This document shows positions 3,421-38,891 of a stretch of 40,308 nt of DNA, piece by piece (within the stretch, counting starts at the first letter, position 1; every line of letters starts with the position of its first letter). Below the pieces are notes generated by a model that searched no databases, was not told where the DNA came from, and saw nothing but the letters and a program-made list of their open reading frames with translations. The stretch comes from Clostridiaceae bacterium (GTDB lineage Bacteria; Bacillota; Clostridia; Oscillospirales; Acutalibacteraceae): the NCBI GenBank assembly GCA_016287385.1, contig JAEEWM010000005.1:72746-113053 (forward strand). Direction: 5' to 3'. The position numbers and the translations under genes were made by a program.

Positions 3421-3449
3421 TTGACTGTCGGGCAAATTTTTAGTATAAT
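3421..3449 (+). promoter_or_regulatory. Consensus sigma-A promoter for the LRR-dockerin gene
   Basis: TTGACT (3421-3426), a 17-base spacer and TATAAT (3444-3449). The box lies directly after the previous terminator. Transcription would start near 3456, which rules out any start codon at 3421 for the downstream gene. Confidence 0.85.
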
Positions 3450-3483
3450 CATCTTGCAGACATATGTCAAAGGTGGGCTCGAT

Positions 3484-11627: not shown

Positions 11628-12458
11628 GTGATTGAATTGTTAAGTAAAATCAAATATGCGCTCAGAAGAAGCAAGTTGGTGAGGATAGTATATCTCCCGA
11701 TAGCGAAAATCAAGGACGCTGTGACATCAAATAAATATCCGAAAAGTGAAGACAGTGCCTTTATGGCGAGTATTAAAGACTCCCGTAAAGGCAAGCGTTG
11801 TTTTATAATAGGCAACGGTCCGAGCCTTATGGCGGAGGATCTTGATAAGATAAAAGACGAGTTTTGTTTCGGTGTGAACCGTATCTACTGTATGTTTGAA
11901 AACACGGAGTGGAGACCCGCGGCTTACGTTTGCATTGATATGGACGTTATCGGCGATGAGCGCGAGAATATAAAAAAAGTTGAAAGTGAGTATAAGTTTA
12001 TCAATCTCAACGCTAAGCGGCAGATGGGCGAGGTTGATAAGCATACTCATTTTATTTACATCAAGGGTAAGTTCAAAATCGACCGTCACGGCACGGCGCA
12101 GAAGACGGTTAACGAAGATATGTCGAAGTATATCTCGATGACCGATAACGTTACCGGCATCTGCCTGCAGCTGGCGTTTTATATGGGCTTTAATGAGATA
12201 TATCTTCTCGGCAACGATTTCAACTATCCGCAAACCGGTAAGGGAAGCGCAAACTCCGAACAGAATTACTTTAAGGGTATGAAGGGCAAAACAAAGGTCG
12301 ATTTCAACTTTGAGGCGAACAGCACGTAATTTAAGACTCTCCGGAGTTACGCGGAAAGTCACGGCATAAAGATATTCAACGCCACGCGCGGCGGTCATCT
12401 TGAAATTTTCGAGCGCGCTGATTTTGACAGTGTGGTGGGTAACTTAAATGGCAAATAA
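11628..12458 (+). pseudogene. DUF115/MptE-like surface-glycan protein interrupted by an in-frame stop at 12327
   Basis: The open part (11628-12329, 233 codons) encodes a DUF115/6-hydroxymethylpterin-pyrophosphokinase-like fold, a family that includes glycosyltransferase-like proteins of surface glycans. Motifs are GKRCFIIGNGPSL, CFGVNRIY, TDNVTGICLQLAFYMGF and YLLGNDFNYP. TAA at 12327-12329 ends the frame, yet the same frame continues for 42 more sense codons to a TAA at 12456. The continuation includes LRSYAESHGIKIFNATRGG and LEIFERADFDS, the conserved C-terminus of this family. The extended gene would overlap the next start at 12448 by 11 bases, as in intact neighbours. The product therefore lacks its last part unless the stop is a sequencing error or is read through. 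Start: GTG 11628, or TTG 11637, which has GGTGA in front. Confidence 0.75.
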
Positions 12459-13260
12459 AGATTATTCGGTCATTATCTCCACCTGTGATAAATTTTCTGA
12501 CCTGTGGGACGCTAACGTTACGCTTCTTGAAAAGAACTGGGGCGACCGCGGAGTTGACACTTATTTTGTTACCGATAAGCCGACAGACCTTGAGTATGAA
12601 AGGGTAAAGTTTATAGCGGCCGGCGAGGGCGCGGAGATAACCGAGCGCATCAAAGCGGCGCTTAAAGTTATAGAGACAAAATATATAGTTTTTCTTTTGG
12701 ATGATTATTTTCTTACAAAACCGATAGATACCGCGAAGATTGACCGATATATCGAGATTATGCGGAAGGAAAAACTCGATTATTTAAGACTTTACACTTT
12801 CCTTAACGCCAAGTACTTTAAGGAGAAAATCGGCGGCTACGGTGACATATACAAGGTCACTACCGACGCGCGATACAACGTAAACCTTTACCCCTGTGTT
12901 TTTTCTCGTGAGTTTTTGGCGGCGACCGTAGAGGACGGAACCAAAAATGCCTGGCAGTACGAGGTTTCACTTACGAAGACAGCCGACCGTTACGGCGCGA
13001 AATGCGCGCTCGTAAACCCCGACGCAATCGATATGCTCGACGTTGTGCGGAAGGGCAGGCTCATAAGAAAGGCGAAGCGGTATCTCGATAAATACGACCT
13101 CTATCACGGGGACCGCCCGGTAATGGACCTGTTTACCACGGTCAAACTCGGCGCCGTATACCGCTTAAAGAGTCTTATGCCGAGGAAATTCAGCAGTTTT
13201 ATCCGTAAAACTCTTAAAAAATGCGGTAAAAAGTTTTACAGCGACGAATATGCAGATTAA
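12448..13260 (+). CDS. Glycosyltransferase-like protein of the surface-glycan locus (paralogue of 28266-29069)
   Basis: A 270-residue cytosolic protein. The N-terminus YSVIISTCDKFSDLW looks like a GT-A start. VFLLDDYFLTKP near residue 88 provides a DD pair like a nucleotide-sugar-binding DxD. Further conserved blocks are YLRLYTF, YNVNLYPCVFSREFL, NAWQYEVSL and DVVRKGRLIRKAKRY, and the C-terminus is very basic. The same blocks occur in the same order in the protein at the far end of the locus, so these are true paralogues. I do not know a characterised member; glycosyltransferase function is likely from fold-level motifs and context. The start follows GTGGTGGG and lies inside the tail of the interrupted upstream gene. 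Confidence 0.75.
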   Translation: MANKDYSVIISTCDKFSDLWDANVTLLEKNWGDRGVDTYFVTDKPTDLEYERVKFIAAGEGAEITERIKAALKVIETKYIVFLLDDYFLTKPIDTAKIDRYIEIMRKEKLDYLRLYTFLNAKYFKEKIGGYGDIYKVTTDARYNVNLYPCVFSREFLAATVEDGTKNAWQYEVSLTKTADRYGAKCALVNPDAIDMLDVVRKGRLIRKAKRYLDKYDLYHGDRPVMDLFTTVKLGAVYRLKSLMPRKFSSFIRKTLKKCGKKFYSDEYAD

Positions 13261-13272
13261 GGTGAGATAAAA

Positions 13273-14250
13273 ATGATAATTACCCGAACCCCTTTCAGGG
13301 TAAGCTTTGCCGGCGGCGGCAGCGATATTGCTTCGTTTTATGAGAAGCACGGCGGATGTGTACTCAGCACCGCCATAAACAAGTATATGTACATTTCGGT
13401 TCATCCGAGTTTTGACCCCGATGAAACGGTGCTTAAATATTCCGAAACCGAAACGGTTAATGATATCGCCGATATAAAGCACAAATATTTTAAGCAGGTG
13501 CTTACCGATCTTGACGTAAAGGGTGTTGAGCTTGTCAGCACGGCGGACGTGCCCGCGGGCACGGGGCTCGGCTCGTCGAGTTCCTTTACGGTGGGGCTTC
13601 TTAACAGTCTTTACGCGTACAAGGGCGTTTACGTGAGCAAGGAGCGTTTGGCAAACGAAGCGTGTGAAACCGAGATAGATAAGCTTAAAAACCCGATAGG
13701 CAAGCAGGATCAGTACGCCGCGGCTTACGGCGGACTCAATTTCTACGAGTTCAAGCGCGACGGAAGCGTAACGGTGGAACCCGTGATAATGGAAAAAGCG
13801 GCAAAAGCCGCGCTTGAAGGCAACCTCATGATGTTTTATACCGGTCAGCTTCATTCGGCTTCGGCGATACTTAAAGAGCAAAGCAATAATATAACCGCGG
13901 GGGATAAGGAAAAAAATCAGCTTAAAATGTGCGATTTGGCGCGCGCTCTTCGTGAGGAACTGACCCGCGGCAATATAGACGCGATGGGCGAGATCCTCCA
14001 CGAGAACTGGCTGTTAAAGAAAACCCTTGCAAGAGGTATTTCAAATCCCGCCATCGACGAGGCGTACGAAAGAGCAATAAAGGCGGGCGCCATCGGCGGT
14101 AAGCTGCTCGGTGCGGGCGGCGGCGGTTTTCTGCTTTTCTACGTACCGAAAGAAAAGCAGGACTCCTTAAAGAAAAAGATGGAATTGCCGCAGATGCCCG
14201 CTTCGTTTGACAGGCAGGGCAGCGTGGTAATATTCACGGGCGATAAATAG
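13273..14250 (+). CDS. hddA: D-glycero-D-manno-heptose 7-phosphate kinase (GHMP kinase)
   Basis: A 325-residue GHMP kinase. It opens IITRTPFRVSFAGGGSD, the typical HddA/sugar-kinase first strand. The ATP-binding loop PAGTGLGSSSS lies at residues 94-104, and the C-terminal glycine-rich motif LLGAGGGGFLLF near 278-290. HddA phosphorylates D-glycero-D-manno-heptose 7-phosphate to the 1,7-bisphosphate. The heptose assignment over fucose- or mannose-type GHMP kinases rests on the three other heptose genes just downstream. It has an AAGGTGAG ribosome site. Confidence 0.92.
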   Translation: MIITRTPFRVSFAGGGSDIASFYEKHGGCVLSTAINKYMYISVHPSFDPDETVLKYSETETVNDIADIKHKYFKQVLTDLDVKGVELVSTADVPAGTGLGSSSSFTVGLLNSLYAYKGVYVSKERLANEACETEIDKLKNPIGKQDQYAAAYGGLNFYEFKRDGSVTVEPVIMEKAAKAALEGNLMMFYTGQLHSASAILKEQSNNITAGDKEKNQLKMCDLARALREELTRGNIDAMGEILHENWLLKKTLARGISNPAIDEAYERAIKAGAIGGKLLGAGGGGFLLFYVPKEKQDSLKKKMELPQMPASFDRQGSVVIFTGDK

Positions 14251-14272
14251 TTTTGAGCTTCGGAGGGAATTT

Positions 14273-15217
14273 ATGAATATTTTGGTTGCCGGCGGCGCCG
14301 GTTTTATCGGTAGCCATCTTATCGACAGTCTGATAAAAGAGGGTCACAGCATAGTTTGTGCGGACAAGCTCGTTATGGGTGACGCCAACATTGAGCATTT
14401 GAAGTCAAATCCCGTTTTCAGGTTTTACGAAACCGATCTGGCGGTCACGGAGAACGCGGACAGGATATTCGCTGAAAACAAAATAGACGCCGTTTTCCAC
14501 CTCGCCGCGAATTCGGATATACAAAAGGGCGGCAAGGAGCCGGGAATTGACTTTAACGATACATTTCTTACCACACGTACACTGCTTGAAAGCATGCGAA
14601 AGGCAAACGTTAAAAAGATGTTTTTTGCTTCGACCTCCGCGGTTTACGGCGAAATGCCGGATGTTCTTTTGAGTGAAACCACGGGCGGACTTATGCCGGT
14701 TTCTTACTACGGCGGCGCCAAGTTTGCGAGCGAGGCGCTCATTTCCTCCTACGTTTCGATGTGCGATATGGCGGCGGTCATTTTCCGTTTTCCGAACGTC
14801 ATCGGTCCCCGCCTTACTCACGGCGTTATCTTCGATTTTATAAAAAAACTTGAAGCTAACCCGCACGAGCTTCTGATTTTAGGAGACGGCACGCAATGCA
14901 AGCCTTATATCTACGTTCTTGATTTAGTTGACGCTATCGTCCGTCTTACCCGCGAGTTTAACGCGGGCGAGCAGGTGTATAACCTCAGCGTAAAGAGCGA
15001 GGGCACCACGGTCACGAAGATAGCCGAAACTGTGGTGGAGGAACTGGGACTTAAAGACGTAGTGTTCAAATATACCGGCGGCGACCGGGGCTGGAAAGGC
15101 GACGTGCCGCGCTTCTCTTACGATATTTCAAAGATACTCGCCACCGGTTGGGAGCCGAAATTCACTTCGGATGAAGCGGTCAGGCAGACGGTAAGAGACG
15201 TTATAAACGCTAACTGA
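14273..15217 (+). CDS. NAD-dependent epimerase/dehydratase (extended SDR)
   Basis: A 314-residue extended SDR with NAD-binding GGAGFIGSH, FHLAANSD, the catalytic segment STSAVYG and YYGGAK (YxxxK), then FRFPNVIGP and LGDGTQCKPYIYV. It sits between hddA and the hddC-gmhB fusion with a strong CGGAGGG ribosome site. It may therefore act on the heptose nucleotide (4,6-dehydration, epimerisation or reduction) or on a UDP-hexose. The sequence alone does not fix the substrate. The motif set resembles GalE-like enzymes more than GDP-mannose 4,6-dehydratase. Confidence 0.85.
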   Translation: MNILVAGGAGFIGSHLIDSLIKEGHSIVCADKLVMGDANIEHLKSNPVFRFYETDLAVTENADRIFAENKIDAVFHLAANSDIQKGGKEPGIDFNDTFLTTRTLLESMRKANVKKMFFASTSAVYGEMPDVLLSETTGGLMPVSYYGGAKFASEALISSYVSMCDMAAVIFRFPNVIGPRLTHGVIFDFIKKLEANPHELLILGDGTQCKPYIYVLDLVDAIVRLTREFNAGEQVYNLSVKSEGTTVTKIAETVVEELGLKDVVFKYTGGDRGWKGDVPRFSYDISKILATGWEPKFTSDEAVRQTVRDVINAN

Positions 15218-15228
15218 CGGAGAGATTT

Positions 15229-16515
15229 ATGCAGGCAGTAATAATGGCGGGCGGCAAGGGTACGCGCCTTTCATCGGTAACAAAGGATGTTCCGAAGCCG
15301 ATGGTTGATTTTTGCGGAAAGCCGCTGCTCGAATACATAATCGGCAATTTGAGAGAAAACGGAGTAAACGATATAATTCTTGTTATCGGCTATTTGGGCG
15401 ATGTTATTAAGAATCATTTCGGCACGGGTGAAAAGTTCGGTGTGCAAATACGCTATTTTACCGAAGAAACACCGCTCGGTACGGCAGGCGCCTTGCCGCT
15501 TATAAGCGATGCGCTTTCGGACACCTTCTTTCTTGTATTCGGCGATTTATTCTTAAATATCGATTTTGAGAAGTTTGCGGACTTTCATAGGGAGAAGGGC
15601 GCTGAAATCACCCTTTTCGCACACCCTAATTCTCACCCGTTTGACAGCGATATAATAATCACGGATAATACCGACCGCGTGACCGGTTGGTCGTATAAGA
15701 AGGACGAGCGCAAAGGATATTACGAAAATCTTGTAAACGCGGGGCTTTACGTTATAGAGAAATCCGTACTGCCGCAGAGCGCGGAGGAAAAGCTCGACCT
15801 CGAAAAGGATATAATAATACCCGCGGTTTCCTCAGGCGCGGTTTACGCGTACAGGAGCAGTGAGTACGTAAAAGATATCGGAACGCCCGAGCGGCTTGAA
15901 AAAGTTGAAGCAGATTATCTTTTGGGCGTCACTGAAAAGAGAAATTTAAAAAACAGGCAAAAGTGTATTTTCGTTGACCGCGACGGCACGATAAACCGTT
16001 TTGTCGGCTTTTTGAGGAAACCCGGTGAAATTGAACTGCTCCCGGGTGTGGCGGAAGCGATAAGGCGTATAAACGAATCAGAATATCTGGCGGTGTGCAT
16101 TACAAATCAGCCGGTGGTGGCGCGCGGCGAAGTAACATTTGAGGAACTTGATAATATCAACAATAAAATGCACACTCTTTTGGGAAATGAAGGCGCGTAT
16201 CTCGACGGACTGTTTTTTTGCCCCCACCACCCCGATATGGGCTTTGACGGAGAGATTAAGGAGCTGAAATTCGACTGTGACTGCCGCAAGCCGAAAACCG
16301 GTCTTGTAAAAAAGGCGGCGGAGCGGTTTAATATAGACGTCAGCAACTCTTTTGTAATAGGCGATACCTACGCCGACGTCCTCACGGGCAAAAACGCGGG
16401 CGCAAAAACCTTTTTGCTGCGGTCGGGCGCCGAAGATAAGTTTGAAAAGTATAAATGCGACCCCGATTTTATGGCTTATGACCTGCTTGAAGCGGTCAAC
16501 ATTATTTTAGGGTGA
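15229..16515 (+). CDS. Fusion of heptose-1-phosphate guanylyltransferase (HddC) and heptose-1,7-bisphosphate 7-phosphatase (GmhB)
   Basis: A 428-residue bifunctional protein. Residues 1-235 are a sugar-1-phosphate nucleotidyltransferase (AVIMAGGKGTRL, PKPMVDFCGKPLLEY, VFGDLFLNID), the HddC/RfbA-like fold. Residues 245-428 are a HAD phosphatase of the GmhB family: FVDRDGTINRF with D250 and D252, CITNQPVVARG, the Zn site C331-x-H333 and C350-x-C352, KPKTG and GDTYADVLTGKNAG. GmhB removes the 7-phosphate of the bisphosphate made by HddA, and HddC then activates the 1-phosphate as a GDP-sugar. Fusing the two would channel the intermediate. In most organisms these are separate genes. The guanylyl specificity is inferred from context, not seen directly. 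Confidence 0.9.
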   Translation: MQAVIMAGGKGTRLSSVTKDVPKPMVDFCGKPLLEYIIGNLRENGVNDIILVIGYLGDVIKNHFGTGEKFGVQIRYFTEETPLGTAGALPLISDALSDTFFLVFGDLFLNIDFEKFADFHREKGAEITLFAHPNSHPFDSDIIITDNTDRVTGWSYKKDERKGYYENLVNAGLYVIEKSVLPQSAEEKLDLEKDIIIPAVSSGAVYAYRSSEYVKDIGTPERLEKVEADYLLGVTEKRNLKNRQKCIFVDRDGTINRFVGFLRKPGEIELLPGVAEAIRRINESEYLAVCITNQPVVARGEVTFEELDNINNKMHTLLGNEGAYLDGLFFCPHHPDMGFDGEIKELKFDCDCRKPKTGLVKKAAERFNIDVSNSFVIGDTYADVLTGKNAGAKTFLLRSGAEDKFEKYKCDPDFMAYDLLEAVNIILG

Positions 16516-16546
16516 TCAAATAAAGAACAGTATTAAGGAGAAAAAA

Positions 16547-17134
16547 ATGAACTATCAGAATGAAATCAGGGAATATATCCGAAACGAGATTGAAACACTC
16601 GAAAAACTGGACGTTGAAGCCATAAACGCCGCGCTTAACTTATTGCGCGAAACGCAGGAGAACGGCAACACGGTATACGTTTTCGGCAACGGCGGCTCTT
16701 CATCGACCGCCTCGCATTTCCAGAATGATTTTAACAAGGGCGTATCCGAACACACCGAGAAAAAGTTTAATCTTCTCTGCCTTAACGATAACGTTTCAAC
16801 CGTTATGGCGGTGGCAAACGATATCGGTTTCGAGGAGGTTTTCCGTTTCCAGCTTATAGGGCATATAAAGCCGGGCGACGTTTGTATCGCAATATCGGGA
16901 AGCGGCAATTCAAAAAACGTTATAAACGCGGTGGAGTACGCCAGAGCGCAGGGTAATAAGATAATAGGTCTTACCGGCTTTTCAGGCGGGAAACTCAAAG
17001 AGATGTCGGATATATCCCTCCACGTGCCGATAAACAGTATGCAGATAACAGAGGATATCCATATGGTGTTCGACCACCTTATGATGAGCGTGTTCTATAA
17101 GACCCTCTGCGGGATAGACCATATAAAGAAATAA
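16547..17134 (+). CDS. gmhA: Sedoheptulose 7-phosphate isomerase (SIS domain)
   Basis: A 195-residue SIS-fold protein with the phosphosugar loop FGNGGSSSTASHFQND (residues about 45-60), AISGSGNSKNV near residue 117 and GFSGGKL near 145. GmhA isomerises sedoheptulose 7-phosphate to D-glycero-D-manno-heptose 7-phosphate, the first step of the pathway completed by the two upstream genes. It has a good TAAGGAG site seven bases before the ATG. Length matches the family (about 190). Other SIS isomerases are possible but unlikely in this context. Confidence 0.92.
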   Translation: MNYQNEIREYIRNEIETLEKLDVEAINAALNLLRETQENGNTVYVFGNGGSSSTASHFQNDFNKGVSEHTEKKFNLLCLNDNVSTVMAVANDIGFEEVFRFQLIGHIKPGDVCIAISGSGNSKNVINAVEYARAQGNKIIGLTGFSGGKLKEMSDISLHVPINSMQITEDIHMVFDHLMMSVFYKTLCGIDHIKK

Positions 17135-21842: not shown

Positions 21843-22988
21843 GTGATTGCGTATTTAACTCTGATATCGGTGACATTTTTATCTCCGATAGTTATGCGAA
21901 GCATAGTTAAAGACACGAAAAAAGCGGAAACATACGCGCTCGGCATATCCGCCTTGCTGCTGTTTCTCGTTTTTGCTTTGCGCGCTCCGAGCGTCGGTCG
22001 CGATATACCCGGATACAAGGAAATGTATGAAAAGCTCGCCGCCAATCTCAAATACGACGCGAACACATACTGGACCGAAAAGGGTTACGAGTTGCTCGAA
22101 ATCTTTTTCGGCAGATACCTTAAAGCGGACTGGCAGGTGTTCCTCGCTTTTTGCAGCGGTTTTTCGATTTTTTCATATTTCCTGTTCATAAAAAGATATT
22201 CGCTTGACCCGACCTTCTCGCTTCTTATTTATATTTTTATGGGTTATATGATTTTTGACATTTCGGCTGTAAGAACCATGCTTTCTATAGCGATTTGTCT
22301 TCTGGTATTGCCGTTTTTCGATAAAAAAGGCATATGGCCGGCAATGGCTGTCACCTTTGCCGTTATTTTAGTGGCTACGCAGATACATTCCTCGGCATAT
22401 ATATTCTTTTTCCTCTATATTCTCTACAAGATACCTATAAACAGTATCAGCATATTCTTTTTCGTGTCACTTCCGGTATTCTTCTTTGCCCTTCGCGGAC
22501 CGATAATGGATTGGGCGATAAGCAATTTCAAAAGGTCAGAGGTGGACGGCGGTTTATCGCTTGGCGGAAACGTGATCTTATATGCACTGTTTTTGCTTTT
22601 TGCCATTATAGTGTTCTTTGTTTCCTGCCGTCAGCGCGGGATATCGATGAAAAGCATAGGCGGGGTTAATCTCGCCGCCGCACAAAAAACGCAAATTAGG
22701 GACGCTTTAAGCAATATAGATATCCCTACGATGATGTCTTTCCGTATGCTGTATGCCGGAGCGCTCTTTACCATTTTTGCCGGTTCCAACATTTTTTCCC
22801 GTATGGCGCAGTACGGACTCATTTTTACGATTACACTTCTTCCGAATTTGACTTCAAAGCTTGAAGCAAAGTCAAGGTTTATTGTAAAACTGGGGCTTTT
22901 AGGATTGTTGGCCGTATATTTCTATTTCCTTAAAGTAAGAACCAATGAACTTGATTTCTTGCCCTATAAATTTTTCTGGCAGGCGTGA
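21843..22988 (+). CDS. EpsG-family polysaccharide polymerase-like membrane protein
   Basis: A 381-residue polytopic membrane protein (about ten hydrophobic segments). The pattern of the EpsG family is seen: a short N-terminal helix, FALRAPSVGRDIPGYKEMY near residue 47, then FGRYLKADWQVFLAF and DISAVRTMLSIAICLL. EpsG proteins are Wzy-like and are thought to polymerise repeat units on the outer face of the membrane. It is followed by the flippase, as expected for a Wzx/Wzy-type pathway. The start is GTG 21843 with GGGTGAAG upstream. Confidence 0.88.
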   Translation: MIAYLTLISVTFLSPIVMRSIVKDTKKAETYALGISALLLFLVFALRAPSVGRDIPGYKEMYEKLAANLKYDANTYWTEKGYELLEIFFGRYLKADWQVFLAFCSGFSIFSYFLFIKRYSLDPTFSLLIYIFMGYMIFDISAVRTMLSIAICLLVLPFFDKKGIWPAMAVTFAVILVATQIHSSAYIFFFLYILYKIPINSISIFFFVSLPVFFFALRGPIMDWAISNFKRSEVDGGLSLGGNVILYALFLLFAIIVFFVSCRQRGISMKSIGGVNLAAAQKTQIRDALSNIDIPTMMSFRMLYAGALFTIFAGSNIFSRMAQYGLIFTITLLPNLTSKLEAKSRFIVKLGLLGLLAVYFYFLKVRTNELDFLPYKFFWQA

Positions 22989-22999
22989 GGTAAGGGGTT

Positions 23000-24286
23000 A
23001 TGAACATATCCGCAAAAATAAAAAACAGCCGCCTTGCCAAAAACGTGTCCTGGATATTTTTCGGCAATCTGGCTCACGCGATACTTGCTTTTTTACTTAA
23101 TATTCTCGTTGCCCGCATACTTAACCTTAACGATAACGGCATCCTTACCTACGCGGCGTCCTGGATTACCTTTTTCGCGTCCGTGGGGCAACTCGGCTTT
23201 AACGGTATAATAAGCCGCGAGTTTTCAAAAGACGAGGGCAGGGCAAACGATCTTCTCTGGTCCTGTGTAACGGGAAGACTGATATTTTCGGTTCTGGCGA
23301 TGATCGCCCTGCAGGTGATAGTGCGCCTTTCAAGCCCCGGTGAGCCGATTTTGCATATCATAGTTTTGTGCCAGTCAACGACAATACTGTTCGGCTCGTT
23401 AGATACGTTTATTTACTGGTACAGATATAAAAACCAGGCGAATGTTACCGCTGTTTACCGCCTTGTGGCGTTCGCTATAAGCGCCGCGTTCAGGGTTTTT
23501 GCAATAGCGGTGTTGAGGAATCTTGTTCTCTACGTTATAGGTATAGTACTTGAAACCGCGCTTTTTGTGGCTTTTTTGGTTTACTTCTACCGCAAGCATT
23601 ACACGAAAAAGGTATTTGTTTCAAAGAACACCATTTTCGTTATGCTCAAAATGTCCTACCCCTTTATTTTCTCGGCGGTGCTCGCTACCATTTACGGGCA
23701 GGCGGATAAAATAATGTTAAAGTCGATGATAAATAACGAATCGGTGGCGCTTTACAACGCTTCGGCGCTCATAGCCGGTCTTGTAGTCATCATTCCCACC
23801 ACCATAATAGAGGGCTTCAGACCCGATATTATGGACGCGAAAATAAGCGACGAAAACCTCTACCGCCGCCGTATGCGCCAGCTTTACGCCATTATTTTCT
23901 GGTCCTGCATCGCTTACGGTATATTTATAACTGTTTTTGCGAAACCTATAATACTTATCCTCTACGGCGAAAAGTATTTAGGCGCGGTAAGCTCGCTGTC
24001 TTTAATAGTGTGGTACACGTCCTTCTCGTATTTCGGAGCCATAAACAACGTTTATATGGTGGCGGAGGACGTTGTCAAATGGGTGCAGGTGACAACCCTT
24101 TCAGGCGCGCTGCTCAACATCATACTCAATCTGTTATTCATAAGCGTCTGGGGAATAGTGGGCGCGGCGCTCGCCTCTCTGCTTACCCAAATATTTACAA
24201 ATTTTGTGCTTATGGCTGTCATTCCCGACCTTCGCAAGGGCTTTAAAATAATGATACAGGGCGTTGCGCTTCGCGGTATAAAATAG
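23000..24286 (+). CDS. Oligosaccharide flippase (Wzx-like, polysaccharide biosynthesis family)
   Basis: A 428-residue membrane protein of the MOP superfamily. It begins SRLAKNVSWIFFGNLAHAIL and shows 12-14 hydrophobic segments, with NILVARILNLNDNGILTYA, SYPFIFSAVLATIYGQADK and KSMINNESVALYNASALI, all typical of the family. It should move the undecaprenyl-linked repeat unit across the membrane. It follows the polymerase by 11 bases with a TAAGGGG site. Specificity unknown. Confidence 0.93.
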   Translation: MNISAKIKNSRLAKNVSWIFFGNLAHAILAFLLNILVARILNLNDNGILTYAASWITFFASVGQLGFNGIISREFSKDEGRANDLLWSCVTGRLIFSVLAMIALQVIVRLSSPGEPILHIIVLCQSTTILFGSLDTFIYWYRYKNQANVTAVYRLVAFAISAAFRVFAIAVLRNLVLYVIGIVLETALFVAFLVYFYRKHYTKKVFVSKNTIFVMLKMSYPFIFSAVLATIYGQADKIMLKSMINNESVALYNASALIAGLVVIIPTTIIEGFRPDIMDAKISDENLYRRRMRQLYAIIFWSCIAYGIFITVFAKPIILILYGEKYLGAVSSLSLIVWYTSFSYFGAINNVYMVAEDVVKWVQVTTLSGALLNIILNLLFISVWGIVGAALASLLTQIFTNFVLMAVIPDLRKGFKIMIQGVALRGIK

Positions 24287-24348: not shown

Positions 24349-25191
24349 TTGGATATCGATAATAAATACGGTTTTAAGGAAACCCAGCAGACTCTTCTTG
24401 AAATAATGAAGAAAATTGACAGGAAGTTTTCTGAAAAAAATATATTCTATATTTTCGTGTATGGTTCTGCTCTCGGCGCGGTGCGCGAGAAGGGCTTTAT
24501 CCCGTGGGACGATGATATTGATATAGCGGTTTTAAGAGAAGATACGGGTCGCGTGGAAGAGGCGTTGTCTGAATTGGAGTATTACTTTGAACCGTGCGAA
24601 AAACATATGCGTCCTTCCGCTCCCATTATGCACATATCGAGCGTAAACAAAAATGATATAGACCCCGAGTTTGATATTAAGGACCATCCGGAAATGGACA
24701 TATGGATAATCGACCGGGTGCCTGCAGGAAAGTTCAAAAGGAAACTGGCGAGATTTACGGCGCTGGAGCATGACTTTTTCACTTACAGGCAACCGCCGGC
24801 AACCCGCGGCGCGTTCATCAATAAGGCGTTTTCGTTCATCCTTAAACTCTTTTCAGATCACGCAATGGATAAACTGCAGGTCAGAACTCTTAAAAGACTG
24901 ATAAAACTCGGGGAAAACGGGAAGTTTGTTACCGAAGCATATCATAATAAGCGTTTCAGGGTATATGAGCGAAATCTTTTAACTGATACGGTCCGTATGG
25001 AATTTGAAGATATGTCGGTACCGGTGCCGAAAGATTACGATAAGTATTTAACGATTGTTTTCGGTGATTATATGACACCGCCGCCGGAAACTCCTGCCGA
25101 GAGCACCGCATCCGGCAAAAAAAATCGCAAAAAGAAAAATCGCGGAACTGTAGCCGTGTACGATACGCGAATTCCCGATCATCATTCATAA
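24349..25191 (+). CDS. LicD-family phosphotransferase
   Basis: A 280-residue cytosolic protein with TTG start (24349) preceded by AAAGGTGG. The LicD signature is complete: FVYGSALGAVREKG, then FIPWDDDIDIAV (G39 to about V60, acidic cluster D54-D58), and HPEMDIWIIDRVPAG. LicD enzymes transfer phosphocholine or related phospho-alcohols from a CDP donor to a glycan. No LicA/LicB choline genes are nearby. The next gene carries a cytidylyltransferase domain, so that product is the likely donor maker. The C-terminal tail (from residue 250) is Pro- and Lys-rich, unusual for the family and of unknown use. Confidence 0.9.
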   Translation: MDIDNKYGFKETQQTLLEIMKKIDRKFSEKNIFYIFVYGSALGAVREKGFIPWDDDIDIAVLREDTGRVEEALSELEYYFEPCEKHMRPSAPIMHISSVNKNDIDPEFDIKDHPEMDIWIIDRVPAGKFKRKLARFTALEHDFFTYRQPPATRGAFINKAFSFILKLFSDHAMDKLQVRTLKRLIKLGENGKFVTEAYHNKRFRVYERNLLTDTVRMEFEDMSVPVPKDYDKYLTIVFGDYMTPPPETPAESTASGKKNRKKKNRGTVAVYDTRIPDHHS

Positions 25192-25209
25192 AAAAGTGAG
25201 GATTTATAA

Positions 25210-27027
25210 ATGCAGGCTTTGATTTTAGCAGCAGGTATGGGCAGACGCCTTAAAGAACTTACCCGAAACAACACAAAATGTATGGTCAAGGTAAACGGAG
25301 TCACTCTGATAGACAGGATGCTTCATCAGCTTGAACGTGAGCATTTTTCACGCATCGTTATCGTGGTCGGTTATGAAGGGCAAAAACTGATCGACTATAT
25401 CGGTACTTTGGATATCACTACCCCCATTGTGTATATAAATAACCCGATTTATGACAAGACAAATAATATTTATTCGCTGGCTTTGGCAAAGGAATGGCTT
25501 CTAAAAGACGATACTGTTTTGCTTGAATCCGATCTGATTTTTGAGGATTCGGTGCTCGATGTTCTTATGCAGGATCCGCGCGATACGCTCGCTTTAGTAG
25601 ATAAATACGAATCGTGGATGGACGGTACTTGTGTAAAACTGGCGGATGACGATACTATTGAGGCGTTTGTTCCGGGCAAGAAATTTAAGTTCAATGAAAT
25701 AAAAGACTATTATAAAACAGTAAATCTTTATAAATTCAGCAAGCATTTTTCAAAAACGCATTACGTACCTTTTTTGGATGCTTATCAGTCTGCTCTCGGA
25801 GAGAATGAATATTATGAACAGGTGCTTCGTGTGATCACCATGCTGGATGAGCCTGTCATTAAAGCGAAGCGGCTGGACGGTCAACACTGGTATGAGATTG
25901 ATGACATTCAGGATCTGGATATCGCAGAGTCTATTTTCACGTCCGATGAGGACGAGAGAGTAAAACTGCTTCAGGGCAGATACGGTGGATATTGGCGCTA
26001 TCCTAAATTGTTGGATTTCTGTTACCTCGTAAATCCCTATTTTCCGCCGGAAAAATTGAAGGACGAAATCCGTGCTAATTTTGACACGTTGTTGACGGAA
26101 TATCCCTCCGGCATGCGCGTAAACAGCCTGCTTGCCGCAAAGAATTTCGGTGTTAAACAGGAAAATATTTTGCTTGGCAACGGGGCGGCTGAACTTATAA
26201 AGAGCCTAATGAGCCACCTTGAAGGCAAGGTTGGATTCATCAGACCGACTTTCGATGAATATCCAAATCGTTATGATAGAGAAAACGCTGTTGATTTTAC
26301 GCCGGACAATGCGGATTATTCCTACACGGCAGATGATATAATAGAATTTTTTTCCGATAAAGACATTCAAAATATGATTGTAATAAATCCGGATAATCCG
26401 AGCGGAAACTATATCTGTAAAGCTGATCTGATCAGGCTCATAAAATGGGCGGCGGATAAACGCATAAAAATTGTTGTGGATGAATCATTCGTTGATTTTG
26501 CGGACGAAGAGAATAACACTCTGATAGAGAAGGAAATATTGTCTTCTAATCCTCATCTTTACGTTATGAAGAGTATTTCAAAGTCCTACGGAGTGCCCGG
26601 TATTCGCTTGGGCGTGCTTGCATCCGGAGATACAGAGACTATATCCAAAATGAAAAAGGATGTTGCGATCTGGAATATAAACTCTTTCGGTGAGTTTTAT
26701 ATGCAAATTGAATCAAAGTACAAAAAAGACTATGAAGCGGCATTGGTTAAGCTGAGAGCGGAACGGTCAAGATTTCAAAATGAGCTTAGCCGGGTCAGCG
26801 GAGTAAGGGTAATTCCTTCTCAGGCAAATTTTGTGATGGTTGAACTCGATGAGGAAATATCACCGGTTGAACTGCTTAAAAAACTGCTTGTAAAGTATAA
26901 TTTGCTTATCAAAGAACTTACAACAAAAACAAACGGTCGGAATTATTTAAGACTCGCGGTAAGAAACTCGGAAGAAAACGACGTGCTGGTAGCGGCTTTG
27001 ATCAATGAATTGGGTGAAATAGAATGA
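25210..27027 (+). CDS. Fusion of LicC/PntC-like cytidylyltransferase and CobD/HisC-like PLP enzyme
   Basis: A 605-residue bifunctional protein. Residues 1-245: nucleotidyltransferase with LILAAGMGRRLKELT, KCMVKVNGVTLIDRML, LLESDLIFE and HWYEIDDIQDLDIAE, the pattern of LicC/PntC-type CTP:phospho-amino-alcohol cytidylyltransferases. Residues 265-605: fold-type I PLP enzyme with NPDNPSGN (N396), DESFVDFAD (D424) and the Schiff-base lysine in SISKSYGVPGIRLG (K458). DESFVDF plus the SKSYGVPGIRLG stretch resemble CobD (threonine-phosphate decarboxylase) slightly more than HisC, to my reading. If so, it could make ethanolamine- or aminopropanol-phosphate and activate it with CTP. It overlaps the opine dehydrogenase start (ATGA). 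An AEP transaminase role is an alternative, but no phosphonate genes are present. Confidence 0.85.
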   Translation: MQALILAAGMGRRLKELTRNNTKCMVKVNGVTLIDRMLHQLEREHFSRIVIVVGYEGQKLIDYIGTLDITTPIVYINNPIYDKTNNIYSLALAKEWLLKDDTVLLESDLIFEDSVLDVLMQDPRDTLALVDKYESWMDGTCVKLADDDTIEAFVPGKKFKFNEIKDYYKTVNLYKFSKHFSKTHYVPFLDAYQSALGENEYYEQVLRVITMLDEPVIKAKRLDGQHWYEIDDIQDLDIAESIFTSDEDERVKLLQGRYGGYWRYPKLLDFCYLVNPYFPPEKLKDEIRANFDTLLTEYPSGMRVNSLLAAKNFGVKQENILLGNGAAELIKSLMSHLEGKVGFIRPTFDEYPNRYDRENAVDFTPDNADYSYTADDIIEFFSDKDIQNMIVINPDNPSGNYICKADLIRLIKWAADKRIKIVVDESFVDFADEENNTLIEKEILSSNPHLYVMKSISKSYGVPGIRLGVLASGDTETISKMKKDVAIWNINSFGEFYMQIESKYKKDYEAALVKLRAERSRFQNELSRVSGVRVIPSQANFVMVELDEEISPVELLKKLLVKYNLLIKELTTKTNGRNYLRLAVRNSEENDVLVAALINELGEIE

Positions 27028-28103
27028 GAATAACCATCGTAGGCGGTGGGAATATCGGTACTCAATTTGCGGTGCATTGTGCTGAAAAAGGCCATGAGGT
27101 TACGGTATATACATCGAAGCCCGATATTTACGAAAGACATCTGAATATTGTTGATGAAAGCGGTATTACTACGCATGAAGGCGATATCAAACTGGCAACC
27201 TTTGACCCTGAAGCCGCATTCCGCAATGCGGAATTAATTATGGTCACAATGCCGGCTATGATGATGAAAACCGTTTCAAAGATAATTTATGAACATACTG
27301 ATAGCAAACCGGTAATCGGGGTTGTTCCGGGAAACGGCGGAAGTGAGTGCGCTTTTCGAAAATGCATTGAACGCGGAAACGTTTTCTTTGGGATTGAAAG
27401 AGTGCCGGCTATTGCGCGTCTTGTGGAAAAAGGCAAAACCGTGAGGTCGATCGGTTACCGTGAAGAACTTCACGTTGCGGCTCTGCCGAAAAAATACGCT
27501 GAGGAGTGCGCCGAGTTGATCGGCGGTATTTTCGATAAAAAAACAACGGCAATCCCTAACTTTTTAAATCTGACGATGACGCCCTCTAATCCGATTTTGC
27601 ATACGGCGAGACTAAAAACATTGTTTGGCGACTGGCATGAGGGTGTTGTATATCAATCGGTGCCGCTGTTCTATGAAGATTGGGATAATGCTTCTTCAGA
27701 ACTCTTAATCGCATGTGATGAGGAAGTGCAAAAGATTTGTCGGGCTTTGCCTAAGTTTGAACTACGGTTTGTAAAATCGCTGCGTATACACTATGAAAGC
27801 CCCACACCTGAGGCAATGACGGAGAAGATTTCGTCAATACCGGCATTCAAGGGCATAACAACGCCTGTTGTTGCAGTTGACGGTGGTTTCATTCCCGATT
27901 TGCATTCCCGGTACTTTACTGCGGATTTTTCTTACGGACTTACAATCATCAGGCAGGTGGCGGAGTTTGCCGGGGTAACGACCCCGAATATTGATGAGAC
28001 CATTGCATGGTATCATGGTATTATGGCGGAAAAAGATGAGTTCCGTTTTGAAGATTACGGAATTACAGGCAGAAACGCCTTTGCTGATTTTTATTTAATG
28101 TAA
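27024..28103 (+). CDS. Opine (octopine/nopaline) dehydrogenase family protein
   Basis: A 359-residue NAD(P)-dependent enzyme. N-terminal Rossmann: ITIVGGGNIGTQFAVHCAEK with GGGNIG at 7-12. The middle has NGGSECAFR. The C-terminal octopine-dehydrogenase domain carries the catalytic-type motif TPSNPILHTARL with His at about 193, and IPAFKGITTP further on. Members reductively join an amino group to a 2-keto acid, giving N-(carboxyalkyl) amines. Its start overlaps the fused enzyme's stop, so the two are translated together. A linked role, N-alkylating the small amine made there, is likely. Substrate not determined. Confidence 0.85.
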   Translation: MRITIVGGGNIGTQFAVHCAEKGHEVTVYTSKPDIYERHLNIVDESGITTHEGDIKLATFDPEAAFRNAELIMVTMPAMMMKTVSKIIYEHTDSKPVIGVVPGNGGSECAFRKCIERGNVFFGIERVPAIARLVEKGKTVRSIGYREELHVAALPKKYAEECAELIGGIFDKKTTAIPNFLNLTMTPSNPILHTARLKTLFGDWHEGVVYQSVPLFYEDWDNASSELLIACDEEVQKICRALPKFELRFVKSLRIHYESPTPEAMTEKISSIPAFKGITTPVVAVDGGFIPDLHSRYFTADFSYGLTIIRQVAEFAGVTTPNIDETIAWYHGIMAEKDEFRFEDYGITGRNAFADFYLM

Positions 28104-28265
28104 TTACGCTCTTTAATGTGCAAAGAGAGCATTACGCAAATTTCATTTATAGCGTATGAATTGACAGCATCTTATCATTACCGGCAGAGAAAGCGATAAG
28201 ACGTGCCACCAAGAAGCCGGCAGTAGCTATGTATCGGGCGAACTTTTAACGGAAAGGCATTGATT
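28104..28265 (+). other. Intergenic stretch with possible RNA structure
   Basis: This 162-base gap is the longest inside the second unit of the locus. A TTGACA (28161-28166) has no matching -10 at 16-19 bases. Inverted elements include GCTCTTT/AAAGAG (28108-28114 with 28122-28127), CTTATC/GATAAG (28171-28176 with 28195-28200) and CCGGC/GCCGG (28181-28185 with 28216-28220). No T run follows, so no clear terminator. I recognise no riboswitch. Confidence 0.3.
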
Positions 28266-29069
28266 ATGAATCACAACAAGGTTGCATTATTGATATTGTC
28301 ATGTGATAAGTTTTCGGATTTGTGGGAAGGTCATATAAAATTGCTTGATAAGAATTGGCCTGACAGAAATATGGAGACATATATTGTTACTGATAAAGAA
28401 ACAGAAATTACTTTTCCCGGCATAAATATTATTTCCGCAGGATCTGATAGCGAATGGTCTCAGCGCCTGTATTATGCACTCGATTTGATAACAACCGAAT
28501 ATGTTTTTGTGGTGTTGGATGACTACTATTTGGTAGATAAAGTGTCAAACGGCGTTATTGAATCTTTGCTGACTGCTATGGATTCAAACGATCTGGATTA
28601 TATTAGGTTGTATAAGCGCCCCAAAAGAGGTTCATTAGGACCCGTCCCGGGTTGTGAAATGCTTAATAAAATCGATACAAATATTACATATACTGTCAAC
28701 TTGTATGCCGGTTTGTGGAAACGCGATTTTTTGAAGTCTGCGGCGCGTGCACCGGTGAATGCCTGGAAATTTGAGGTTTCCTTATCCCGCCATGCTAAAG
28801 AGTATAATGCGAATTGTTGTGTTTGCAAAGCAAATGTGTATAAGATACTTGACGTTGTGAGAAAAGGTAAAATCCTCCATAAGGCGGCAAGGTATTTTAA
28901 AAATAATCCCGGTATATATGCCGGGGATCGGGAAATACAATCCTGGAGTTATGAGATAAGACTCAACATCAAAACGTGGATCGGTAGGATTTTTCCGAGG
29001 TGGGCAAATGAGCTTTTCAGAGTAATATTGAGAAAGTTCGGATATCATTTTTACCGTGACGATGTATAA
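28266..29069 (+). CDS. Glycosyltransferase-like protein (paralogue of 12448-13260)
   Basis: A 267-residue protein. ATG 28266 is preferred over TTG 28260 because GGAAAGG lies eight bases upstream. It shares with the protein at 12448 the ordered blocks ILSCDKFSDLW, FVVLDDYYLVDK, DYIRLYKR, YTVNLYAGLWKRDFL, NAWKFEVSLSRH, ILDVVRKGKILHKAARY and a basic C-terminus. Function probably the same: a GT-A-like transferase with a DD pair near residue 87. Its base composition is visibly lower in GC than the earlier copy, so it was not formed by recent local duplication. Confidence 0.75.
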   Translation: MNHNKVALLILSCDKFSDLWEGHIKLLDKNWPDRNMETYIVTDKETEITFPGINIISAGSDSEWSQRLYYALDLITTEYVFVVLDDYYLVDKVSNGVIESLLTAMDSNDLDYIRLYKRPKRGSLGPVPGCEMLNKIDTNITYTVNLYAGLWKRDFLKSAARAPVNAWKFEVSLSRHAKEYNANCCVCKANVYKILDVVRKGKILHKAARYFKNNPGIYAGDREIQSWSYEIRLNIKTWIGRIFPRWANELFRVILRKFGYHFYRDDV

Positions 29070-36461: not shown

Positions 36462-38891
36462 TTAACCGGCTGCTACTACCGCGGCTATGGCGATATAAGG
36501 TCCGCTGCCGTTTGCCGTGACAGTAACTGTATGTTTGACGTCCGGCAGGTTGTTGATTACCGGATATTCCGTCGTATTCGTCGTATTTGAGCCTGACAAA
36601 ACGTAATCTGTTCCGTCGATATTGACGGTAAGAGTCTGATTCGCCTTAATATTGCCGAGAATGCCTATGCTTGTTCCTTTTACTGTAAAGGTAAGATCCG
36701 CACCGTCAGACAGCGGATAAATATATTTTGAAAAAATTTCGGATAAGCAGCTTGAATAAGATGTACGGAACGGCGTGCCGGAAATTTCATAATCAGTATT
36801 GTCAAACCAATATTTTGCGCCCCAATCACTGTCAAGCTTTCCCCACTTGAACGGGTCATAAGTATCGCGGGTAAGCAGATTTACGTAATCGGGTGTATAA
36901 AGAGATAATTTAACATTTTTTAATTTATGCTTACTGTAATCGCCGTTCGCCATAAGTTTTTCGAGTCCGGATGTTATTGCGTTCGCGTAAATCGCGTAAC
37001 CGTCATCGTTCGGATGTACCATATCGGTAAAATATGTGTCCCAGCCGGCGGTGGAGCCGCCGAGTGCTTCACACATAGCCGCGCCTGCGTCTATTATCGG
37101 TATTCCGTAATAATCCGCTACTTCTTTTATTTCAAGCAGTTTAGTAAACTGTGTGCCGAGTTTGTATCTGTCCGTAACCATAACAAAGACCATATCACAA
37201 TACGGATGATTATCATTAAGACAGCGGATCATGTATTCTATATCCTGCTTTGTCTGCTCGGTGCTGATACTGTTATAACCGTCGTTGACCGCAAACTCAA
37301 CAAACACAAGGTCGGGGTTTTTATTTACTATATTATTATTGAATCTCGCCGCCCCGAGGTACGAGCCGGTACCTCCTATACCCATATTGATTTCATTAAC
37401 GGTAGCGCTCGGATACTTGCTTTTAAGCCACGCGGTAGTACGGGCGCGCCAGGAATATTTTGAGGAGTCTGTAGACCCTGTGCCGCCGGTAACGGAACCG
37501 CCGATATATGCGACATTAACGGTATCGCCCGCTTCCAGCTTATACCGGGTGTTTTTCAGAGTATAAGCATTTCTGCCGAGGATGGTGTTTACCAGCTCCT
37601 TAAAGTCCGCGTCATTAACCGCGCCGTCTTCATCACAGTCAAGCGATTGCAATGTAACCTTTCTGCCGCAGCGCACATTTTTATAGCCAACCAAATCAAT
37701 AATATCCGTTGTATTATCGCCGTTATAATCGCCGTCTCTGTAAACCGGTGTGAATTTATCGTCGTCTACATCTTCGGCAACGATATAACCGTCAGCCCAG
37801 TTAATTGAAGTCCATTTACCCGTGGATATATTATCCTTGGTGGTTCCGGTTTTAAGCTCAATATTATTTGTGTTGAAATTTTCAATGAGATTTTCGCCGG
37901 TGGGATTGCCGCTTTCAATTCTATAAAGCTGAGGATTCTTATAATAAGTATCCATACTTACACCTTTGCCGTAGTTTCCTATCATAACAATAAAGCTTGT
38001 TTTATTACCCCAAAGCCTGAAGTATATTGTTCGCTCGGTACCGGATAATATATCTTCCGTACCGCTCTCTATTTCCATTGAGCCTTTATATCCTGAAGTG
38101 GCAGTGCCCGAATTAACGTTGATCAGCACATCGGATTTAACGCCGCCTACGGCGCATTCGTCAACCGTAAAGCGGTATACGCCGGCCGATATAGCCCCGC
38201 CCTTGTAGCAAAGCACCTGATAGTTATCAGCGCATTTTGCGGGGAAATGAATCATCTGCGGAGTGGCTTCTACGTACGGGTTAAAGTAGCCGCTGGGTAT
38301 TGAACCGCAGGTCCAACCGTTGTTACGGCGACGCCACTTGTTTACGGAAGCTGTCGTAACGTCAGAAACATTGTCTATATAATTCCCGGAGGCAAAAGGT
38401 TTTACAAGATTATTTCCGGTAGGCTCCCCTTCGCCATCGAGGAGATAGAGCGTAGGATTAGCGCAGGCAAAGACGGCGTCACCGCTGCCGTCGAGCGCAC
38501 CGTCGTAATTGCCGATATACATCGAGTAATTTCCGCTGTAAGTCGTGGATACGGTAAAGGTTACCGTGTACTTATAATTTGCCGAATCGTAATTATATAC
38601 ACGGTTTGTATAATAACTGTCATCACTTGAATTATACGCCCTTGCGGTCGGGTAAGCCATTGGCGTACCCGACGTGATCTTACAATCCATTTCAAACTTA
38701 TAATTACCCGCCTGAACGGTAGTCCAGGACGAAGTGTAAATGAAACACCCGTAAGGATTGGTTCCGTTAAAGGTTACCAGATCGGATGTTTCCGCGCTTA
38801 CCTGTAAGCCCATAAGGCAACTGAAAATTGTTGTTAAAATACAAAAAGACAGAAAAATACTGCTGATTTTTCTAAAGCATTTGGTTTTCAT
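36462..38891 (-). CDS. Secreted SGNH/GDSL esterase-like protein with internal type I dockerin
   Basis: An 809-residue secreted protein. Signal peptide about 1-33 (ISSIFLSFCILTTIFSC). Two related N-terminal beta-sandwich modules (about 35-370) each end with a similar tail (LYLLDGEGEPTGNNL and LYRIESGNPTGENL) and are probably carbohydrate-binding. A dockerin follows at about 386-441 (GDYNGDNTTDIIDLVGYK and LDCDEDGAVNDADFKELV). The SGNH hydrolase domain at about 454-655 has IGGSVTGG (Ser), GIGGTGSYLGA (Gly), FVEFAVND (Asn) and DMVHPNDDGY (Asp/His). A C-terminal beta module of about 150 residues ends the protein. It may deacylate plant or host glycans on a cellulosome-like scaffold. The dockerin sits in the middle rather than at an end, which is unusual. 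The ribosome site is AGGGGG. Confidence 0.9.
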   Translation of the reverse strand: MKTKCFRKISSIFLSFCILTTIFSCLMGLQVSAETSDLVTFNGTNPYGCFIYTSSWTTVQAGNYKFEMDCKITSGTPMAYPTARAYNSSDDSYYTNRVYNYDSANYKYTVTFTVSTTYSGNYSMYIGNYDGALDGSGDAVFACANPTLYLLDGEGEPTGNNLVKPFASGNYIDNVSDVTTASVNKWRRRNNGWTCGSIPSGYFNPYVEATPQMIHFPAKCADNYQVLCYKGGAISAGVYRFTVDECAVGGVKSDVLINVNSGTATSGYKGSMEIESGTEDILSGTERTIYFRLWGNKTSFIVMIGNYGKGVSMDTYYKNPQLYRIESGNPTGENLIENFNTNNIELKTGTTKDNISTGKWTSINWADGYIVAEDVDDDKFTPVYRDGDYNGDNTTDIIDLVGYKNVRCGRKVTLQSLDCDEDGAVNDADFKELVNTILGRNAYTLKNTRYKLEAGDTVNVAYIGGSVTGGTGSTDSSKYSWRARTTAWLKSKYPSATVNEINMGIGGTGSYLGAARFNNNIVNKNPDLVFVEFAVNDGYNSISTEQTKQDIEYMIRCLNDNHPYCDMVFVMVTDRYKLGTQFTKLLEIKEVADYYGIPIIDAGAAMCEALGGSTAGWDTYFTDMVHPNDDGYAIYANAITSGLEKLMANGDYSKHKLKNVKLSLYTPDYVNLLTRDTYDPFKWGKLDSDWGAKYWFDNTDYEISGTPFRTSYSSCLSEIFSKYIYPLSDGADLTFTVKGTSIGILGNIKANQTLTVNIDGTDYVLSGSNTTNTTEYPVINNLPDVKHTVTVTANGSGPYIAIAAVVAAG

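Follow-up and report, generated by a model that had tools for sequence, protein, structure and literature searches.

What would a LicD-family phosphotransferase, a cytidylyltransferase fused to a pyridoxal 5'-phosphate (PLP) enzyme, and an opine dehydrogenase (ODH) make together? The question is raised by three adjacent genes of a Clostridiaceae bacterium, found in a 40,308-nucleotide window (assembly GCA_016287385.1, contig JAEEWM010000005.1, positions 72,746 to 113,053; contig C5 in our numbering) of a 1.86 Mb genome that is 99.97% complete. All three frames are open on the + strand, encoding LicD at 24349-25191, the fusion at 25210-27027, and the ODH at 27024-28103, and the stop codon of the fusion overlaps the start codon of the ODH in an ATGA at 27024-27027. 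The three-gene set, overlap included, had been described in an earlier note on this DNA and is confirmed here. That note had also proposed that the PLP enzyme decarboxylates phosphoserine or phosphothreonine and that the product, activated with cytidine triphosphate (CTP) and coupled through its amine to a keto acid, is passed by LicD to a glycan. The sequence comparisons described below support this interpretation. We consider it probable that the trio is a pathway for the decoration of a surface polysaccharide with N-(carboxyalkyl)ethanolamine phosphate, leading from phosphoserine via cytidine diphosphate (CDP)-ethanolamine to the ODH and LicD.

In the proposed pathway, the fusion would take L-phosphoserine and CTP. 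Its LicC-type half would make the cytidine monophosphate (CMP) ester and its other half, which resembles CobD and serine-phosphate decarboxylase, would remove CO2, in either order, to give CDP-ethanolamine. The ODH would use the reduced nicotinamide cofactor NAD(P)H to join a keto acid (pyruvate being the most likely one) to the free amine by reductive coupling, yielding CDP-N-(carboxyalkyl)ethanolamine. Finally, LicD would move N-(1-carboxyethyl)ethanolamine phosphate off CDP and onto one of the polysaccharide's sugars. We infer the substrates, the order of the steps, the keto acid, the acceptor sugar, and the timing relative to export; the domains, conserved residues, phylogeny, gene linkage, ODH-LicD fusion, lack of a phosphoenolpyruvate (PEP) mutase over its cut-off, and presence of SerC are observations.

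The PLP domain of the fusion groups with a serine-O-phosphate decarboxylase

The fusion is 605 residues long and matches the Pfam families Aminotran_1_2 (90.2 bits) and NTP_transf_3 (40.1 bits). Its C-terminal PLP domain (25975-27027, + strand) carries the motifs DESFVDF, SKSYGVPGIRLG, and K458, as previously read from the sequence, and matches Aminotran_1_2 (PF00155), not class V. Across the fusions from ODH loci, 63 of 64 of which are long enough to score, K458, D424, N396, R466, and R581 are kept in 63/63. In a PDB sequence search, the closest solved relative of the domain is 6oux (E 1.3e-49), ahead of CobD and HisC; the title of this entry names SMUL_1544, a decarboxylase from Sulfurospirillum multivorans. 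The top NCBIfam match of the fusion is CobD (TIGR01140), at 172.5 bits under an equivalog cut-off of 290.55, and the hisC model (TIGR01141) scores 148.5 bits against a cut-off of 276.55.

A midpoint-rooted tree of 83 PLP domains included 37 fusions (the window, five of six order relatives, four viral or plasmid matches, and 27 of the 59 fusion loci introduced below), 20 CobD and 20 HisC references that each score over their NCBIfam cut-offs, one Sulfurospirillum sequence annotated as serine-O-phosphate decarboxylase, the HisC that the window's own genome carries elsewhere, and four standalone PLP proteins. We take the annotated Sulfurospirillum protein to be SMUL_1544. The 37 fusion domains form a single clade (99/92) that joins the serine-O-phosphate decarboxylase, a single reference on a long branch, at 100/100 and then CobD at 100/99, while the HisC sequences sit across the deepest fork. 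The 20 CobD sequences make up a group of their own, not strongly supported (94/64), and the fusions fall outside it. No CobD over cut-off was found in the window's own genome. The claim that the domain is CobD-like, as opposed to HisC or class V, therefore stands, and phosphoserine is favored over phosphothreonine for what is a proposed phosphoserine (or CMP-phosphoserine) decarboxylase.

Phosphothreonine or phosphohomoserine as the substrate, with a tag based on N-carboxyalkyl 1-amino-2-propanol or 3-aminopropanol phosphate, would fit the facts that the neighboring tree family, CobD, is a threonine-phosphate decarboxylase according to PDB titles and that the CobD model gives the domain its best NCBIfam score. 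We regard this as unlikely, given that the first partner in the tree is the serine-O-phosphate decarboxylase, that the top PDB match is 6oux, and that likely aminoethylphosphonate gene sets beside two related ODHs (see below) favor a two-carbon amine. It is very unlikely, in our view, that the domain is an aminotransferase, for example one that makes serinol phosphate as Cj1437 does for a serinol-based tag. The fold is common to both kinds of enzyme, both are used in one Campylobacter capsule locus according to excerpts of PMC12409886, and the four standalone PLP proteins, which are encoded beside other ODHs, lie on the HisC side of the tree; the fusion domains, however, group with the decarboxylases and not with HisC. 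The standalone proteins themselves (L026, L029, L057, and L065) had been labeled CobD by a hidden Markov model (HMM) and are not counted as decarboxylases because the tree places them with HisC.

The N-terminal domain resembles LicC and PntC

Residues 1-255 of the fusion (25210-25974, + strand) align with 6pd1 (PntC-AEPT) and 1jyk (LicC) in the PDB sequence search. G9, G11, R13, K23, D108, E229, and D231 are conserved in 63/63 of the scorable fusions, which thus have the G-x-G-x-R signature, the lysine, and the acidic residues of a LicC/PntC-type cytidylyltransferase; specificity for CTP is predicted. D108 and D231 are presumably metal ligands. K23 aligns with the PntC lysine, and alanine at the counterparts of that lysine in FrbH and YgbP abolished activity, as reported in excerpts of PMC6697681.

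The structure model of the fusion is moderately confident (predicted local distance difference test (pLDDT) 79.7). A Foldseek search with the whole model returned two-domain PntC-AEPT chains first by E-value (4.7e-27, with a TM-score of only 0.35 over both domains), followed by 6oux. PntC-AEPT of Treponema denticola (6pd1 and 6pd2) has the same order as the fusion, a LicC-like cytidylyltransferase followed by a PLP enzyme. However, the PLP half of PntC-AEPT is class V and its substrate is a phosphonate, whereas the PLP half encoded in the window is class I/II and CobD-like and no PEP mutase over cut-off was found in the genome.

Two further systems bear on the fusion. FrbH, from FR-900098 biosynthesis, is described in excerpted literature as a cytidylyltransferase acting on L-2-amino-4-phosphonobutyrate. 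We regard this compound as an isostere of phosphoserine. The PLP decarboxylase half of FrbH acts after cytidylylation, and because of this precedent, CMP transfer may also come before decarboxylation in the window fusion. Unlike the trio, FrbH belongs to a phosphonate antibiotic pathway, one not known to include LicD or ODH. In Campylobacter, Cj1436 converts serine phosphate to ethanolamine phosphate for the capsule, according to excerpts of PMC12409886. Enzymes of the SMUL_1544 and Cj1436 type serve norcobamide and capsule amide pathways, respectively, and the Sulfurospirillum gene is unfused, encoding a 393-residue chain.

The opine dehydrogenase and LicD

The ODH (27024-28103, + strand, 359 residues) matches PF02317 at 101.9 bits against a cut-off of 30, and its structure model has a pLDDT of 91.4. 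Its closest solved relative by both sequence and fold is the octopine dehydrogenase 3c7a, the top fold match at E 2.7e-27; octopine dehydrogenase is an animal enzyme that uses arginine and pyruvate. In an alignment with 3c7a, H193, R296, and D301 fall on H212, R324, and D329, residues which we take to be catalytic or pyruvate-binding, and their conservation among 88 ODHs is nearly complete (H193 in 88/88, R296 in 87/88 with one Tyr, and D301 in 86/88 with two gaps). The enzyme is proposed to N-carboxyalkylate the ethanolamine amine.

LicD (24349-25191, + strand, 280 residues) has a TTG start with AAAGGTGG directly upstream and scores 98.2 bits against PF04991, well over the gathering cut-off of 22.6. 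Its proposed role is the transfer of the decorated aminoalkyl phosphate, carried by CDP, onto the glycan. In the Lic phosphocholine pathway (LicC and LicD), a CDP-activated amino-alcohol phosphate is likewise placed on a surface glycan. The trio resembles this pathway in its LicD-family transferase and in the cytidylyltransferase domain that aligns with LicC 1jyk, and differs from it in having a fused PLP enzyme in place of choline kinase and, in addition, the ODH.

The trio recurs across phyla

A scan of named genomes with an ODH alignment yielded 80 loci, the best 80 of at least 102 confirmed relatives. Counts over these loci come from a six-frame search; greedy open reading frame (ORF) calling can pick wrong frames. 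The fusion is present in 59/80 ODH loci, at most 400 bp from the ODH in 58 of them; LicD is present in 45/80. In 54 of the 64 loci counted, the fusion is upstream of the ODH on the same strand. Among the 59 fusion loci, LicD is located 600 bp or less from the fusion-ODH pair in 37, with all genes on one strand in 23 of these, and further off in 2. The linkage foreseen for other genomes is thus borne out. Carriers include Clostridia, Prevotella and other Bacteroidota, Fibrobacter, one Elusimicrobiaceae genome, and one Gastranaerophilales genome; the nearest named relative among the matches listed, a Saccharofermentans metagenome-assembled genome (MAG; L039), has an ODH that is 72% identical and the same LicD-fusion-ODH order. 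With key residues conserved in the long-enough fusions and the neighborhood recurring across phyla, the trio is more than a chance assembly.

Two Prevotellaceae loci (L061, 8001-9791; L086, 7992-10760) encode ODH and LicD in a single ORF, with both domains over their Pfam cut-offs, which ties the ODH to transfer by LicD. The L086 protein extends well past LicD, and no further Pfam match was found there at E 0.001.

The 21 loci without a fusion were sorted by partner. Six have a fusion elsewhere in the genome (L040, L084, L085, L093, L098, and L109; L098 also has LicD), two have a PEP mutase set, four have a separate LicC-like gene, two have a CTP-transferase-oxidoreductase set, and seven are partnerless. 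As observations in their own right, the ODH adjoins a standalone LicC-like gene in L099, L100, L103, and L111, and L099 also contains an amidohydrolase and a LicC-choline-kinase-like fusion. In L026 and L027 (assigned by Pfam) and in L057 and L065 (assigned by our own HMM), the ODH is accompanied by two LicD genes, a transaminase, and a cytidylyltransferase-Gfo/Idh oxidoreductase fusion, likely sets for a different CDP-linked amine.

A polysaccharide as the probable acceptor

The fusion loci are enriched in glycan genes. A Wzx-like gene occurs in 33/59 fusion loci versus 1/13 loci without a recognized partner (Fisher p 0.0017), and Wzx or GT2 in 39/59 versus 2/13 (p 0.0013). The 13 comparison loci have no fusion, phosphonate, LicC, or CTP-transferase partner in their flanks; for six of them, the fusion is encoded at another site of the genome. 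Locus lengths differ somewhat (median 16981 bases for fusion loci and 14367 for comparison loci) and related genomes are not independent, so the p-values give rough guidance only. The GT2 and GT4 seeds from the window matched only themselves; the GT2 counts were obtained with another seed and GT4 was uninformative.

That the trio makes an opine metallophore or some other free small molecule, or else the head group of a lipid, is very unlikely. Opine metallophore dehydrogenases share the fold of the ODH, and a more distant relative of the fusion adjoins a CDP-alcohol phosphatidyltransferase, but LicD often adjoins the fusion-ODH pair and in two loci is fused with the ODH, Wzx is enriched, and a polysaccharide locus surrounds the window trio. 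A polysaccharide decoration thus remains the preferred product. The earlier note had specified a Gram-positive polysaccharide; the polysaccharide is supported by the surrounding locus, whereas the restriction to Gram-positive bacteria is not, as the logic is not Gram-positive-specific and Bacteroidota account for 54/80 loci by record title and tree labels.

Distant relatives of the fusion occur in other settings. On the Erwinia rhapontici plasmid (L037), the relative is followed by the CDP-alcohol phosphatidyltransferase gene, which suggests lipid or small-molecule use of a CDP product. On plasmid pBM700 of Priestia megaterium (L038), one lies beside an AAC(3)-like acetyltransferase and a copy of 1-deoxy-D-xylulose 5-phosphate reductoisomerase, surroundings that are reminiscent of an FR-900098-type phosphonate antibiotic cluster. 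A LicC-CobD fusion that is 51% identical was found on a 321 kb viral contig from IMG/VR (L030, 5001-6806).

The probable amine and the supply of phosphoserine

Evidence on the amine comes from two Ruminococcus MAGs. Downstream of the ODH, L048 (7977-13407) and L050 (7962-12710) encode, in this order, a class V transaminase, a CTP-transferase-PEP mutase protein, and a thiamine pyrophosphate (TPP)-dependent decarboxylase. PEP mutase, a class V transaminase, and a TPP decarboxylase are the set for 2-aminoethylphosphonate, according to excerpts of PMC6697681, so the two loci likely encode an aminoethylphosphonate pathway and are predicted to yield an N-carboxyalkyl aminoethylphosphonate. The ODHs of both are nested, together with seven fusion-linked and four partnerless ODHs, in a clade supported at 100/100. 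Together, the phosphonate-type sets and this nesting point to 2-aminoethyl phosphate or phosphonate as the amine; the simplest common ODH substrate would be the amine of either compound, free or CMP-linked. The ODH-LicD fusion and the phosphonate-type sets lend independent support to the original proposal.

A phosphonate route in the window's own genome was considered and rejected, as PEP mutase reaches only 21.1 bits there, short of the 31.5-bit cut-off, and the genome is nearly complete. PEP mutase was not over cut-off in any of the 16 tested genomes that combine fusion and ODH in a single locus, namely the own genome, four order relatives (one of them, G262, 80% complete), and 11 other non-Bacteroidota genomes drawn from the 59 fusion loci with L053, L095, and L096 left out. 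Of six genomes with fusion and ODH apart, one (L040) has a PEP mutase over cut-off. The own genome encodes SerC (531.5 bits, over cut-off) and a SerA-like gene, from which phosphoserine should be made.

Precedent for the predicted product

The predicted product type of the trio is known as a structure from the O-polysaccharide of Proteus mirabilis, where N-[(R)-1-carboxyethyl]ethanolamine phosphate (R-Cet-EtnP) is reported for serogroup O14. The residue is named in a figure legend and the glossary of PMC9630907, in a list that covers Klebsiella and P. mirabilis polysaccharides. Among the open-access literature matches listed, we found no pathway or enzymes for R-Cet-EtnP and no named LicD-fusion-opine dehydrogenase pathway. 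A Proteus ODH as a link to R-Cet-EtnP was tried on one P. mirabilis locus (25% identity; two records matched) and dropped. The ORF that precedes this ODH resembles cysteine synthase, as judged by eye only, and 'ethanolamine' and 'aminotransferase' each have 0 occurrences in the main text of the Proteus O-antigen cluster paper (PMC5560731).

Observations that weigh against the pathway

Several observations count against the proposed pathway. Concerning the substrate, the serine-O-phosphate decarboxylase reference in the tree is one long-branch row, which makes the substrate assignment only moderate. The SerA-like match of the own genome is below its cut-off, and a SerC match is missing in the L039 genome, one of six genomes tried. 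The L040 genome combines a partial fusion, apart from the ODH, with the PEP mutase over cut-off. Within 12 kb of the examined Proteus ODH, nothing matched LicC, LicD, or CobD. Concerning linkage, LicD is absent from the fetched flanks in 20/59 fusion loci, and no partner was found in 7/80 loci (L041, L042, L047, L056, L059, L062, and L110), which were searched genome-wide for fusion and PEP mutase and in the flanks for other partners.

The fusion also occurs without a neighboring ODH. In the window's own order, 7/394 genomes have the fusion at E 1e-60; the ODH adjoins it in four and shares its locus in one more (G262), leaving 2/7 without. In the order of Prevotella ruminicola KHT3 (genome G454, locus L105), 11/295 genomes have the fusion at E 1e-100; the ODH is within 1.5 kb flanks in 4/11 and so missing from them in 7/11, and LicD is present in five of these seven. 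The ODH is therefore at most an add-on to the fusion. It looks like fusion and LicD form a core, probably for plain ethanolamine phosphate, to which the ODH is a frequent addition.

An alternative is that the group transferred by LicD is plain ethanolamine phosphate, and that the ODH acts on another amine of the same polysaccharide, such as that of an amino acid or amino sugar; a fusion near LicD without ODH is seen in Fusobacterium vincentii (L036) and in 5/11 fusion genomes of the KHT3 order. We find this quite unlikely, since the ODH is tied to this very branch by its position next to the fusion in 58/80 loci, by the ODH-LicD single proteins, and by the phosphonate-type sets. Carboxyalkylation of the ethanolamine amine itself thus remains the favored role of the ODH.

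Meaning of the locus

On balance, we lean slightly toward a broader view, in which these loci represent a decoration system, so far undescribed, that is widespread among anaerobes of the gut and rumen from several phyla. A core that supplies LicD with CDP-ethanolamine made from phosphoserine would be joined by a carboxylate-adding ODH module, and this module would have been exchanged between a phosphate form (fusion) and a phosphonate form (PEP mutase) of the aminoethyl group. If true, N-carboxyalkyl ethanolamine phosphate would thereby gain its first genetic basis, as far as open-access literature matches show, and N-carboxyalkyl aminoethylphosphonate would be predicted as a glycan substituent. 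A rare glycan modification, otherwise found only as a chemical structure, would have a candidate genetic signature in the trio, and it is predicted in many gut and rumen bacteria, including Prevotella, Fibrobacter, and Clostridia. Such tags alter the charge of the surface, and phages and immune receptors read epitopes of this kind.

The surrounding locus and other genes of the window

The trio sits toward the 3' end of a Wzx/EpsG-type polysaccharide locus, which also contains glycosyltransferases. On the + strand, an initiating undecaprenyl-phosphate sugar phosphotransferase is encoded at 9976-10797 (PF02397, 182.7 bits), an EpsG-family membrane protein, likely a Wzy-type polymerase, at 21843-22988 (PF14897, 123.6 bits), and a Wzx-type flippase at 23000-24286 (PF01943, 93.4 bits). 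Probable guanosine diphosphate (GDP)-heptose genes occupy 13273-17134 (+ strand) and comprise an hddA-like kinase, an epimerase, an hddC-gmhB-like fusion, and a gmhA-like isomerase; the matches to NF049969 (159.0 bits), NF006506 (148.5 bits), and TIGR00441 (116.2 bits) are each under the equivalog cut-off.

Two related proteins flank the glycan locus, at 12448-13260 and 28260-29069, with 43% identity over 86 compared residues and no Pfam match for either. Further out, a BspA-type leucine-rich repeat protein (3421-4650) and a GDSL esterase (36462-38891) both have a dockerin match, that of the esterase scoring 20.3 bits, under the cut-off of 22.9; these matches hint at a cellulosome-bearing host.

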